This document shows positions 7,613-11,342 of a stretch of DNA of 64,000 nucleotides, one piece after another. The notes under the pieces are model-generated. The model saw only the letters and a list, made by a program, of their open reading frames with translations, was not told the DNA's origin and searched no databases. This DNA comes from Ornithinimicrobium sediminis (lineage in GTDB: Bacteria > Actinomycetota > Actinomycetes > Actinomycetales > Dermatophilaceae): contig NZ_JAJSDQ010000004.1 of assembly GCF_021272345.1 (NCBI RefSeq), positions 310,001 to 374,000 on the forward strand. The letters run 5' to 3'. The position numbers and the translations under genes were made by a program. Every line of letters begins with the position of its first letter. The first letter of the stretch is position 1.

Positions 7613-8524
7613 GTGCGCATCGTCTCGCTGCTGCCCTCGGCCACCGAGATCCTGTATGCCGTCGGCGCCGGACCCGACGTGGTGGGGGTCACCTTCGAGT
7701 GCGACGAGCCGGCCCGGGCCCGCACCGACGCCAGGGTCGTCTCCACCAGCTCGCTGCCGACGGCGCACGGACAGGACGTCCCCACACCCGCCGAGATCGA
7801 CGCCGCCGTGCGGGCCCGTCTCGAGGCCGGCGAGGACCTCTACCACCTCGACCGTGGCGCGCTGGCCGACCTGGACGCGGACCTGGTCGTCACGCAGGAC
7901 CTCTGCGCCGTGTGCGCCGTCGACGTCTCGGAGGTGCGCGACGCCCTGGAGCACCTCGGCTGCTCCGCCCAGGTGCTGACCACCGACCCGCACACGATCG
8001 GCCAGGTCCTCGAGAGCATCGTCGACATCGGCCGGGCCTGCGGCCGGGAGCCGGCGGCGCTCGACCTGGTGGCGGGCCTGCGCCGCCGCCTGGAGGCACT
8101 GCCCGGCGCCCCGGGGCCGGGGGCGCGCCGGGTCGCGGTCCTGGAGTGGACCGACCCGCCCTTCGCCCCCGGGCACTGGGTGCCGGAGATGGTCGAGGTG
8201 GCAGGTGGGCTCAACGTGCTGGGCTCGGCCGGTGCCAGGTCGGTCGCCACGACCTGGGACGCCGTCGCAGCCAGTGCCCCCGACGTCGTGGTGGTCGCGC
8301 CCTGCGGGTTCGACCTCGCGACCTCGGCGCGCCTCACCCGTGAGCTGCTGGACGGGCCGTTGGCCGCGATGCCCGGTGTGCAGCAGGTGTGGGCGGTCGA
8401 CGCCAACGCCTCCTACGCCCGCCCGGGGCCGCGCATCGTCGACGGCATCGAGGCCCTGGCCGCGATCGTCGACCCCGGTCGCTGGGGGCCGCCCGACGCG
8501 GGCCTGGCCGAGCACTGCCGGTGA
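7613..8524 (+). CDS. BtuF-like helical-backbone metal receptor / cobalamin-binding family protein
   Basis: 303-residue protein of the class III periplasmic-binding (BtuF/FepB) fold, starting with GTG (MRIVSLLPSATEILYAVGAG). The early VGVTFECD segment and the Cys-pair motif TQDLCAVCAVDVSEVR (about 94-109) mark the subfamily often called cobalamin-binding protein. A long backbone helix region links two alpha/beta lobes; the second has VAVLEWTDPPFAPGHWVPEM. No signal peptide or lipobox is present, so it is probably cytoplasmic and not a normal import receptor. No BtuCD-type permease or ATPase lies nearby. The stop of the preceding gene is 5 bases away. Confidence 0.75.
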   Translation: MRIVSLLPSATEILYAVGAGPDVVGVTFECDEPARARTDARVVSTSSLPTAHGQDVPTPAEIDAAVRARLEAGEDLYHLDRGALADLDADLVVTQDLCAVCAVDVSEVRDALEHLGCSAQVLTTDPHTIGQVLESIVDIGRACGREPAALDLVAGLRRRLEALPGAPGPGARRVAVLEWTDPPFAPGHWVPEMVEVAGGLNVLGSAGARSVATTWDAVAASAPDVVVVAPCGFDLATSARLTRELLDGPLAAMPGVQQVWAVDANASYARPGPRIVDGIEALAAIVDPGRWGPPDAGLAEHCR

Positions 8525-8568: not shown

Positions 8569-9039
8569 GTGAGCACTCACAGCCTGACCGTCCGCCGCAC
8601 TGTCCACGCCCCCGTGGAGCAGGTGTGGGCCGTCCTCACCGACCTCGACCATGCCGAGGAGCGGCTGACCAACGTGACCGGGGTGCGGGTCCTCACCGAC
8701 GGCCCGTACGCCGTGGGCACCCGGTGGCGGGAGACGCGCAAGATGCTCGGCGTCGAGACGACCGAGGAGATGTGGGTCGCCGAGAACGACCCCCTGCGCA
8801 GCACCGTGATCGAGGCCTCATCCGGGGGCACCGACTACCGCACCGTGTTCACCCTGAAGCCGCTCGGGGAGCGGTCCACCGAGCTGACCATGCAGTTCTC
8901 CGGCGAGAACGGTGACGCGCCGACCGGCGTGCGCAAGGCCCTCGGCAAGGCGATGGGGTCGCTGGGTCTGCGGCTGACCCGCCGGACGATCGAGCGTGAC
9001 CTCGATGACATCGCGGCCGCAGCCGCCACCCCTGTGTGA
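8569..9039 (+). CDS. SRPBCC family protein (START/Bet v1-like)
   Basis: 156-residue hydrophobic-cavity protein of the polyketide cyclase/START-like superfamily. It opens with TVRRTVHAPVEQVWAVLTDL, the typical first strand and helix, and ends with a long amphipathic C-terminal helix. The ligand and role are unknown. GTG 8569 is chosen for the GAGGAG ribosome site at 8558-8563. TACACT at 8532-8537 is a plausible -10 element. It lies 44 bases after the BtuF-like gene, so independent initiation is likely, and is followed by a strong hairpin. Confidence 0.8.
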   Translation: MSTHSLTVRRTVHAPVEQVWAVLTDLDHAEERLTNVTGVRVLTDGPYAVGTRWRETRKMLGVETTEEMWVAENDPLRSTVIEASSGGTDYRTVFTLKPLGERSTELTMQFSGENGDAPTGVRKALGKAMGSLGLRLTRRTIERDLDDIAAAAATPV

Positions 9040-9092
9040 GCCCCGGGACGCCCGCCCCCGAGGGCACCCGCGTGCCCCCGCGTGCCCGATGC

Positions 9093-9130
9093 GCGCTCCG
9101 GTGTCGGTTTCGAAGGCGACACCGGAGCGC
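9093..9130. terminator. Hairpin terminator between convergent genes
   Basis: Perfect 14-base inverted repeat GCGCTCCGGTGTCG / CGACACCGGAGCGC around a 10-base loop, placed between the SRPBCC gene and the convergent lipoprotein gene. No T-tract; bidirectional use likely. Confidence 0.8.
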
Positions 9131-9163
9131 ACATCGGTCACGGGGACTGCTGGGCCGAGGGCC

Positions 9164-10225
9164 TCAGCGGCCGGCGGGCACCTCGACCCGGTCGAGGCCT
9201 CCGACGCCGACGGAGAGCAGGCTCTCCCCGGTCAGCGGCAGGATGCCCTGCGTCGTGGCGCGCACGTCGGCGAGCTCCCCGCCCTGCTCGGCCGCGAAGC
9301 CGCCGTCGGGCAGCTGCACACCCGTGAGCCAGTCCACCGCAGGCTGCACGTCCTCACCCAGCGCCGCCAGGGCCGACGCCGCCAGGCCGGTGGTGTTGAC
9401 GGCCGAGAAGCCCTGCCACGAGCCGTCCTCGGCCTGCTCGCTCAGCAGGTAGCCGCGAGCGGTCACGACGGCGTCGACCGCACCGTCCTGGTCGAGGACC
9501 CCGCTCAGTGCGGAGACCGCCAGGGCCGTGGAGTCGAGGTCGGGGGTGTACTCCCCCTCGTTGTCGAACCCGAAGGAGCCGGTCTCGGCGTCCTGGAGCG
9601 CGACCAGGTTGTCGACGGCCGCCTGCGGCACCTCGGCCTCCGCCCGGACCAGACCCAGCACGCAGAGCGACTGGGTGTAGGCGCCGGCGAACTCGCCGCA
9701 CTGCCCGGTGTCGTCGATGGACTCCACGACGATCTCGGTGAGGTCGAGGCCCCCGAAGTCGGTGGGGTCCTGACCCGCCGCGGCGACAGCGACCGCCAGG
9801 CTGCCGGCGGCCGGGCCGTTGCCCTCGGTGTAGGCCGGGGCCTGCTCGGCGAGCCAGTCGGCCATGGCCGCCACCTCGCTGTCGTGGCCGCCGGCAGCAG
9901 CGAGGGCGATGAGGCCGTCGACGGTCAGGCTGCCCTCGTCCTCGGGGAAGTGCGAGCCCTCCTCGAGCTGACCAGCCAGGAAGCCTGCCGCCGCGGCCGC
10001 CGACTCCTCGGCGCCGGCCGGGGCGGCGGAGGTCGTGCCGACGTCGTCGGACCCGGCGGTGGCGTCGCCGGTGTCGTCGGCGGTGTCCCCGCCGGGCTCG
10101 GCCGCCGTCTCGGCGGTGGCGTTGCCGGCGCCCGGGTCGGTGGTGGACTCCTCGGCACAGGCCGCGGTGCCGAGGGTGAGCAGGAGCGCCAGCGCGAGAG
10201 CGGGGCGACGGATGGAGCGAGACAT
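9164..10225 (-). CDS. Secreted lipoprotein with prenyltransferase/squalene-cyclase-like repeats, under B12 riboswitch
   Basis: 353 residues. A signal peptide (RRPALALALLLTLGTAAC) ends in a lipobox-like Cys at about residue 23, followed by an acidic Gly/Thr/Ala-rich disordered linker to about residue 80. An all-helical alpha/alpha-barrel-type domain follows with recurrent DGSW/DGGF-type turns: AETGSFGFD, AEDGSWQGF and LPDGGFA. Two cysteines (GQCGEF and QSLCVLG) may form a disulfide. The repeats are those of terpene cyclases, but the DXDD and DDXXD catalytic motifs are not seen. Transcobalamin and intrinsic factor use the same barrel to bind cobalamin. A cobalamin riboswitch sits directly upstream, so a surface cobalamin-binding role is the best inference. 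The DUF4430-like second domain of those proteins is absent. Confidence 0.75.
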   Translation of the reverse strand: MSRSIRRPALALALLLTLGTAACAEESTTDPGAGNATAETAAEPGGDTADDTGDATAGSDDVGTTSAAPAGAEESAAAAAGFLAGQLEEGSHFPEDEGSLTVDGLIALAAAGGHDSEVAAMADWLAEQAPAYTEGNGPAAGSLAVAVAAAGQDPTDFGGLDLTEIVVESIDDTGQCGEFAGAYTQSLCVLGLVRAEAEVPQAAVDNLVALQDAETGSFGFDNEGEYTPDLDSTALAVSALSGVLDQDGAVDAVVTARGYLLSEQAEDGSWQGFSAVNTTGLAASALAALGEDVQPAVDWLTGVQLPDGGFAAEQGGELADVRATTQGILPLTGESLLSVGVGGLDRVEVPAGR

Positions 10226-10251
10226 GAAGGACCTTTCGGCAGAAAGGGTCC
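10226..10251 (-). promoter_or_regulatory. Shine-Dalgarno-sequestering hairpin (riboswitch expression platform)
   Basis: Reading the minus strand, GGACCCTTTC (10251-10242) pairs across TGCC with GAAAGGTCC (10237-10229), with one unpaired base. The right arm contains the AAAGG ribosome site directly before the ATG at 10225. A stem covering the ribosome site suggests translational control by the upstream riboswitch. Confidence 0.6.
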
Positions 10252-10329
10252 AAGGTTCCGGTGACCGGGGGACGGCAGGCAGCGAGGCACGGCGCACCCA
10301 GGGCTCGGACCCGCAGACCACGACGGGAT

Positions 10330-10480
10330 GGTTCGAGCCAAGACCTCCCCCGGGCATTCCGGCTCGGCGCCACCGCGGTGTGCGCGCCGCTGCACGGCAC
10401 GCTCTCGGTGGCACCTCACGGTTGCGGGTCAGCGCCGGGTTCGCACCGGTCTTCCCCCGACGAAAGGCTTGTCCGCGCAT
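10330..10480 (-). ncRNA. Cobalamin riboswitch
   Basis: The minus strand carries the conserved core: GGGGGAAGACCGGTGCGAAC, then CCGGCGCTGACCCGCAACCG, a paired J region, and a B12-box-like AGCCGGAATGCCCGG near 10352-10366. The order and spacing match the adenosylcobalamin-type aptamer (Rfam cobalamin family). The exact outer boundaries are estimated. It is followed by about 100 bases and the SD-masking hairpin before the lipoprotein gene at 10225. Confidence 0.9.
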
Positions 10481-10556
10481 CGTAGCGGAGCCCCGGGGCC
10501 GACCTGTGCCACGTGCCGGGACGTCACCCGCGCTGCGGGCAGGTAGCGTCGGAAGG

Positions 10557-11342
10557 GTGCGGCTGGCCACCTGGAACACCCACCACGGCCTCGTCACCGA
10601 CGACGGTCCGGTGGACAACCACGCCCTGGCCTCGGCTGCCGCCGCGCTGGATGCCGACGTGCTGGCCCTGCAGGAGGTCGACCTGGGGCAGCCACGCTCC
10701 GACCATGCGCACCAGGCCGCGGACCTGGCGGCGGCCACCGGTGCCCATGACTGGCGCTACGCGCCCGCCCTCGTCGGCACACCTCCGTGGCGCTGGCGCC
10801 ACGCACACGGCGACGCGCACCATGCCCACGGCGCGGACGACGCCGCCGACCACCACCCGGCATACGGCGTCGCCCTGCTGTCCCGGCACCCGGTGCGTCA
10901 GTGGCACACGCTGCGTATGGCGCCCGCACCCGTGCGCGTGCCGGCCTCGCTCCCCCGCAGCGGACCGCTGTGGTGGATGGGCGACGAGCCTCGGGCGGCC
11001 GTGGCCGCCGTGGTGGACACCCCGCACGGCACGATGACCGTCGTGACGGCGCACCTCTCCTTCGTGCCGGGGCCCAACCTGCTGCAGCTGCGCCGACTGT
11101 CCCGCTGGGTGCGCACGCTGCCCGGGCCGCGGGTGCTGCTGGGCGACCTCAACCTGCCGCCCTCGGTCGTGGGCCGGGTCTCGGGCTTCGAGGTGCTGGC
11201 ACGCGCTCGCACCCACCCGTCCCACGGACCCCGCATCCAGCTCGACCACGCCCTCGGTCACGGCTCCCCGCCGGAGGTGCGGCACGCGGTCACCCGTCGG
11301 CTGGCGCTGTCCGACCACCTGGCCCTGGTCCTGGACATCTAA
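10557..11342 (+). CDS. Endonuclease/exonuclease/phosphatase family protein
   Basis: 261-residue EEP-fold (DNase I/APE1-like) hydrolase. Metal and catalytic motifs in order are TWNTHHG (N), LALQEVDLGQPRSDH (E), VTAHLSFVPG (H), LLGDLNLPP (D..N) and the final LSDHLALVLD (DH pair). A His-rich insert (HAHGDAHHAHGADDAADHH, about residues 81-99) is unusual and could bind metal. The substrate (DNA, phospholipid or phosphoinositide-like) is not predictable. GTG 10557 (VRLATWNTHHG) is chosen; TAGCGT at 10544-10549 would make it leaderless. Confidence 0.85.
   Translation: MRLATWNTHHGLVTDDGPVDNHALASAAAALDADVLALQEVDLGQPRSDHAHQAADLAAATGAHDWRYAPALVGTPPWRWRHAHGDAHHAHGADDAADHHPAYGVALLSRHPVRQWHTLRMAPAPVRVPASLPRSGPLWWMGDEPRAAVAAVVDTPHGTMTVVTAHLSFVPGPNLLQLRRLSRWVRTLPGPRVLLGDLNLPPSVVGRVSGFEVLARARTHPSHGPRIQLDHALGHGSPPEVRHAVTRRLALSDHLALVLDI

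Follow-up and report, generated by a model that had tools for sequence, protein, structure and literature searches.

BtuG is an accessory protein of Bacteroidetes that binds B12 at the cell surface; it and BtuH have a fold unrelated to the toroid considered here and operate in a Gram-negative outer-membrane setting. For Gram-positive bacteria, we know of no proven extracellular receptor for ECF-type import of the vitamin. BtuG and BtuH, the surface B12-binding proteins of Bacteroidetes (for BtuH, PMC8941943), are, like the protein proposed below, accessory corrinoid-binding proteins of B12 uptake. ECF-CbrT (PMC5997447) shares with the present system the ECF-type import of B12; unlike the present system, it has no extracellular capture protein mentioned in the accessible text of that report. 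The general idea of a toroid that scavenges B12 with the help of a transcobalamin-C-like domain has been known since 2007. Burroughs et al. (PMC1796856) described bacterial toroids with SLBB (DUF4430-like) domains in operons with CbiO/CbiQ and predicted them to be B12 scavengers; in the accessible text, their hosts usually lack key genes of B12 synthesis, the proteins described are fusions, the organisms are mainly low-GC Gram-positives and archaea, and the word “riboswitch” is absent from the main text. Those scavengers, as presented there, have in common with our system a secreted toroid, a transcobalamin-C-like domain and CbiO/CbiQ-type transporter genes. Unlike them, our system is actinobacterial, is encoded by separate genes, is linked to riboswitches and, in the genome studied here, is split over two loci. 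Within the literature searched (titles and abstract openings, with few subscription papers covered), we found no description of this actinobacterial system; what is new, within those bounds, is its occurrence in actinobacteria as separate genes linked to riboswitches, with the lipoprotein barrel detached from the rest.

The other natural comparison is with intrinsic factor, transcobalamin and haptocorrin (2pmv, 3kq4, 2bb5, 8ixt, 4kki), which have the same toroid fold and match our barrel profile collinearly. As in that family, relatives of the barrel pair a toroid with a beta domain. Unlike in intrinsic factor, however, the toroid here is a single, probably lipid-anchored protein and the beta domain is the product of another gene; in fused relatives the beta domain comes first, the reverse of the intrinsic factor order. 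Unlike the members of that family, the barrel is also not matched by Pfam PF01122.

The barrel gene lies in a 64,000-nucleotide stretch of Ornithinimicrobium sediminis DNA, which we call the window; its features are collected in the table. With a probability of roughly 0.8, we read its product as the toroid half of a two-piece cell-surface receptor for B12 (corrinoid) that would feed a distant ECF importer.

Features of the barrel locus (window positions) and fused relatives (positions within their own loci)
Feature	Place	Coordinates	Strand	Basis or remark
Barrel lipoprotein gene (P0001)	window	9164..10225	-	ATG 10225, TGA 9164, 353 aa
Signal-peptide-like start to putative lipobox Cys23 (TAAC)	window	10157..10225	-	by eye, from sequence
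Low-complexity linker, about residues 24-72	window	10010..10156	-	composition, by eye
Alpha/alpha toroid, residues 64-353 (part modelled)	window	9167..10036	-	AlphaFold2, Foldseek
Cobalamin riboswitch, full length including P13	window	10304..10460	-	R1, 74.8 bits, E 2.3e-13
RF00174 core	window	10377-10456	-	Rfam local search, 22.5 bits
B12 box AGCCGGAATGCC	window	10353..10364	-	sequence
L5 loop stretch GACCCGCA	window	10423..10430	-	sequence and relatives
P13-like hairpin CCCGT-CGTGGTCT-GCGGG, carries GGTC (10316-10319)	window	10310..10327	-	
Hairpin GGACCCTTTCTGCCGAAAGGTCC covering GAAAGG ribosome-binding stretch (10232-10237)	window	10229..10251	-	
Beta+barrel fusion	L050	868-2766		beta first; beta recognized by eye
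Beta+barrel fusion	L077	1914-3785		beta first
Beta+barrel fusion	L078	7185-9215		beta first; plus separate beta and T-A-S downstream
Beta+barrel fusion	L145	1861-3105		beta first

The initial annotation had proposed a lipoprotein signal, a disordered linker and a helical toroid with cyclase-type repeats. By eye, the chain does begin with a putative signal ending in the lipobox and continues into a low-complexity linker rich in Ala, Asp, Gly and Thr; a Cys after a signal-like stretch is also present in the relatives from L008, L009 and L013. Both QW-like repeats are there (QAEDGSW, residues 264–270; QLPDGGF, residues 304–310), and the AlphaFold2 model, computed with 57 relatives, is a confident alpha/alpha toroid (pLDDT 91.3, pTM 0.90), a fold common to the terpene cyclases. 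The best NCBIfam match is SCO2321_fam (NF053823), at 73.2 bits far below the curated cut-off of 300, and the best Pfam match is SQHop_cyclase_C (39 bits, cut-off 26.1). No second beta-grasp (SLBB/DUF4430-like) domain was found in the chain by sequence or by Pfam.

The cobalamin riboswitch that had been proposed ahead of the gene, with conserved core and B12 box, is borne out, by one covariance model more clearly than by the other. A window scan at the Rfam gathering score did not list an RF00174 element, and the local search (E 9e-4) stayed below the gathering cut-off of 31.5 bits. The clade model R1 was trained on 20 riboswitches out of 24 collected ahead of related barrels; the window element and that of the second locus described below (L006) were left out deliberately, L032 and L036 were omitted as near-duplicates, and L038 had been dropped earlier. 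R1 matched the window element over all 125 positions, and the next best place in the window reached 13.3 bits. The core GGGAA..CCGGTGCGAA..CCCGCAAC, the B12 box and the conserved pairing are all present. Pairing holds for 96.3% of cells in the R1 alignment. Cells with a change on both sides number 51, whereas shuffles average 13.3 (0 of 500 reach 51) and slid controls give at most 13.

The P13 helix is paired in 98.8% of cells in the 20 relatives, and GACC in L5 (10427–10430) would pair with the L13 GGTC as a kissing pair. Three riboswitches (L010, L041 and L043) read TCC in L5 and GGA in the P13 loop, while the others of the 24 read ACC; judged from the sequences, this change could be a covarying kissing pair, to which L033 and L045, combining ACC with GGA, are a counter-case. 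A hairpin over the ribosome-binding stretch is a possible expression platform. By energy alone it is weak, since the 61-nt stretch that holds it folds at -15.8 kcal/mol with a z of -1.52, and 17 of 200 shuffles were as good.

Does the toroid belong with the B12 carriers or with the cyclases? In Foldseek, the top match of the window barrel is rat transcobalamin (8ixt, E 6e-6, TM 0.64); squalene-hopene cyclase 8pak and AprG follow directly, with haptocorrin 36th and intrinsic factor 41st. The fold alone does not decide, because squalene cyclases and AprG score like transcobalamin. We accordingly do not use fold matches as evidence that the protein handles B12: enzymes with a toroid reach similar scores, and no transcobalamin appears among the 50 matches listed for a beta+barrel fusion. 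Profile A5, an eye-made selection of 57 of the 79 relatives introduced below, mainly without near-duplicates and short pieces, aligned by hhalign with the barrel of intrinsic factor, haptocorrin and transcobalamin with a score of 44.1 over 228 columns (E 2.3e-5), collinearly across most of both; VDT/LDST, YSTGLA/NTTGLA and SIAQILPSLKGKTYLDV/RATTQGILPLTGESLLSV fall in register. The reversed control scored 13.7 and the best of 30 column shuffles 15.5; when squalene-hopene cyclases took the place of the barrels, the score with intrinsic factor was 19.2 over 43 columns. The relatives’ loci were chosen by motif, which favors the motif conservation in A5 and part of the YSTGLA likeness; profile A3, made without motif selection, scored 28.5 over 193 columns against intrinsic factor. 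The comparison thus supports, at the level of sequence profiles, the kinship of the barrel with the intrinsic factor/transcobalamin barrel over most of its length.

That the barrel is instead a toroid enzyme (a terpene cyclase or some other) whose synthesis is turned on by B12 scarcity is very improbable in our estimate. It has in its favor the best Pfam match, the ranking of toroid enzymes among the fold matches, and squalene-hopene cyclases as the strongest PDB sequence matches of the barrel. Against the carrier reading, squalene cyclases lead the 55 PDB sequences listed for A3, among which intrinsic factor and transcobalamin are absent, and A5 reaches 72.5 over 125 columns with squalene-hopene cyclase, above its score with intrinsic factor. 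Pfam PF01122 (Cobalamin_bind) likewise found nothing in 12 genomes, that of O. sediminis included. Against an enzyme stand the putative export signal seen by eye, the usual company of the relatives (a beta protein and ECF transport genes, with fusions to the beta protein) and the lack of DXDD, the class II terpene cyclase motif, which is absent from the window barrel sequence just as the initial annotation had observed. A terpene cyclase in particular was rejected on the missing DXDD and the transport context of the relatives.

That context emerged from two sets of relatives. A search with the single protein matched 9 of 297 genomes of the order at E <=1e-10, its own included, and a nine-row profile matched 42 of 396 at E <=1e-6. 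The barrel loci checked with Rfam, 29 in number, come from 29 of the 41 matching genomes other than its own, and at 23 of them a cobalamin-type riboswitch lies upstream on the same strand, some below the cut-off. In the 28 loci that were extended, a beta gene is near the barrel in 21, and T, A and S genes are near it in 21. Two loci reach contig ends after the beta or T gene (L021, L070), one misses the beta match alone (L058), and one has the full cluster with no riboswitch detected (L071). The S component occurs in 36 of the 42 barrel genomes and in 60 of the 354 others (Fisher p 3e-19, with kinship ignored).

A wider scan of a contig collection found 126 relatives, of which 79 loci, found by the patterns CxSDPDATS and N[AS]NSTGLAA, were kept; they come from Dermacoccus, Janibacter, Amycolatopsis, Saccharothrix, Lentzea, Micromonospora, Embleya and others. 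Some of these loci are cut by contig ends, and the training rows of R1 lie partly inside the set because some organisms are in both (L012 and L076, for example, are from one organism). With those limits, an R1 riboswitch lies at most 900 nt upstream of 69 of the 79 barrel matches; at a score of at least 55 bits there are 107 R1 matches in 75 loci, and 30 loci have more than one. Counting both strands of the stretches fetched, 66 of 79 loci have a beta gene, 58 have T, A and S, and 13 have neither beta nor T. In four loci beta protein and barrel are fused (see table). Among relatives, then, beta genes, ECF genes and riboswitches are the usual neighbors of barrels; DUF4430 has no match in the genome of O. 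sediminis.

The arrangement of the parts varies. In several Amycolatopsis loci (L083, L085, L087, L105, L116, L119, L121 and L130), barrel and beta-beta-T-A-S cluster are divergent and each has a riboswitch: the first precedes the barrel, and the second, on the strand of the cluster, lies about 2.5–3 kb ahead of the first beta gene. Loci from Micromonospora and Verrucosispora (L127, L132, L134, L139, L140, L147, L151 and L152) have a riboswitch before a barrel-beta pair and a second about 1.6–1.7 kb ahead of another beta gene and T-A-S. In L019 and L065, two barrel genes surround one beta-T-A-S set; these paired barrels are perhaps receptors with different corrinoid preference.

In five of the 28 extended loci (L013, L017, L059, L063 and L067), neither beta nor T nor S is matched near the barrel, and neither Rfam nor R1 gives a riboswitch. 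All come from one family of the sample (f20), and four of their five genomes (G070, G126, G206 and G228, 73–92% complete) are without S. Stand-alone barrels therefore need not belong to the system, and these five are perhaps a branch with another role or other control. The window barrel differs from them in its complete riboswitch.

The beta protein is the likely equivalent of the domain that follows the toroid in intrinsic factor and transcobalamin. Its profile scored 18.2 against the intrinsic factor beta domain and 13.2 when trimmed, with shuffles reaching 14.8, which is not significant. Sequence does not show it to be DUF4430: Pfam has no match for the beta protein, hhalign is not significant, and the own genome has no DUF4430, a family found in 4 of 296 genomes of the class. 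In the model of a fusion (pLDDT 92.6), it is uncertain how the domains sit relative to each other, as pTM is 0.71; the order of its predicted elements (strands, a helix, two strands directly after the helix, more strands) agrees with the described SLBB/DUF4430 topology, an agreement in element order alone. Transcobalamin is not among the 50 fold matches listed for the fusion.

The window barrel, the one place in its genome matched by the barrel profile, has no membrane transporter among the seven proteins scanned with Pfam between 7077 and 12883, which agrees with the initial annotation and with its suggestion that the protein feeds a distant uptake system. A candidate for that system exists. 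The Rfam search of the genome gave two matches at E <=10, both below the cut-off, one in the window and one on contig C10. R1 found the same two places (74.8 bits in the window and 87.5 bits on C10, the next at 16.3 bits, E 5), with 150 of 250 first-look candidates scored for Rfam and 150 of 6913 for R1. The C10 element (locus L006) precedes genes for a secreted beta protein, a T component, an A component in the form of a double ECF ATPase, and an S component. T, A and S thus stand in one operon, with A and S below family cut-offs: for T, CbiQ (“Cobalt transport protein”) is matched above the cut-off at 44 bits, the A component matches ECF ATPase at 276.4 bits (cut-off 315), and the S component has riboflavin/folate-type matches of 25.3 and 30.5 bits, both below cut-off. 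The beta protein matches SCO2322_fam (NF040672) best, at 26.2 bits against a cut-off of 85, so that barrel and beta protein point, each from far below its cut-off, to the SCO2321 and SCO2322 families. The earlier picture of a barrel acting alone holds for the chain itself, which has no second domain; it does not hold for the system, in which a likely second domain comes as a protein of its own; its gene lies with the ECF genes on another contig, and in many relatives it adjoins or is fused to the barrel.

An importer of this kind might carry cobalt, not corrinoids, as B12 riboswitches also control cobalt ECF transporters. The CbiQ match of the T component fits that reading, and Cbi/Nik-type transporters behind B12 riboswitches have been described (PMC2667541). 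We nevertheless regard cobalt import as highly unlikely. The S component resembles riboflavin/folate-type S proteins, albeit below cut-off, and the scans that showed this gave it no match to CbiM; uptake of a metal ion leaves a large toroid and a beta protein with no evident task; and CbiC, the sole marker of corrin ring synthesis that was searched, has no match in the genome, so there is no sign, by that one marker, of corrin synthesis needing cobalt. The genome does have three B12-binding domains, one carrier of which we take from its sequence to be MetH. Since CbiC was not found and B12-binding domains were, the organism probably needs outside B12.

The divergence of the window barrel speaks against the two-piece receptor. 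Among 61 columns with conservation of 90% or more across 57 relatives, it retains 36 and changes 25. Conserved cysteines (57, 57 and 54 of the 57 relatives) are replaced at 212, 226 and 307, a fourth (55 of 57) falls past the end of the window protein, and parts of the GRFxDxSxxGDYSN loop are lost. Its own Cys176 and Cys188, which had been suggested to form a disulfide, occur at those columns in none of the 57 relatives, and the suggestion loses its footing. These losses and the detachment from the operon would also suit a decaying or repurposed orphan, in a cell whose beta/ECF operon imports B12 without the barrel. The five stand-alone barrels without riboswitch and ECF neighbors lend that reading some color, as does the sole other sampled genome of the genus (G257), in which neither barrel nor S was found at the thresholds used, so that even a single genus may have the system in some members and lack it in others. 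The orphan reading is nonetheless unlikely in our view: the reading frame is intact, the riboswitch is complete over 125 positions, the signal-like start and linker are retained, the fold is confident, and D231, T233, N277, T279 and Q326 are kept, as are D103, Y132 and Q185 among the conserved positions. The divergence may mean another corrinoid preference, less dependence on a partner, or drift.

In the two-piece receptor, which we continue to prefer, low B12 would leave the riboswitch open, and the barrel would be synthesized, exported and anchored by lipid. The toroid would then cup a corrinoid together with the separate, secreted beta protein from the ECF locus; B12 would sit between the two and be handed on to the S component of the ECF transporter, which would import it. 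At high B12, the riboswitch would favor the hairpin that hides the ribosome-binding site, and synthesis would fall. A more specific version, which we offer tentatively and rate slightly nearer to wrong than to right, is an intrinsic factor in two pieces that assembles in trans. Its halves would be encoded at two distant loci, each with its own cobalamin riboswitch, and the lipid-tethered toroid would close over B12 only when joined by the beta protein next to the ECF importer. On that view, bacteria alive today would show, in the fused and the separate forms, intermediates of the B12 carriers of animals, and the strongly diverged window barrel may favor another corrinoid.

If the receptor reading is true, it names a widespread actinobacterial system for B12 capture, ties the SCO2321 and SCO2322 families to B12 and gives ECF-type B12 import an extracellular receptor. 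Small soluble proteins would then also allow a direct test of the proposal that human intrinsic factor and transcobalamin came from bacteria.

Some features of the surroundings deserve mention. A scan of 9000–10700 found no sigma-70 promoters or terminators. Between the barrel gene and its convergent neighbor lies a near-perfect inverted repeat, CTCCGGTGTCG...CGACACCGGAG (9096–9127), with no terminator score. That neighbor (8569–9039, plus strand) encodes an SRPBCC/polyketide cyclase-like protein with weak likeness to the Rv0910 family (34.3 bits against a cut-off of 100). On the strand opposite the barrel and two genes away, 7613–8524 (plus) encodes a BtuF-like Peripla_BP_2 protein (34.4 bits) without an evident signal peptide; its NCBIfam matches, BtuF included, are all below cut-off, and it is possibly corrinoid-related.
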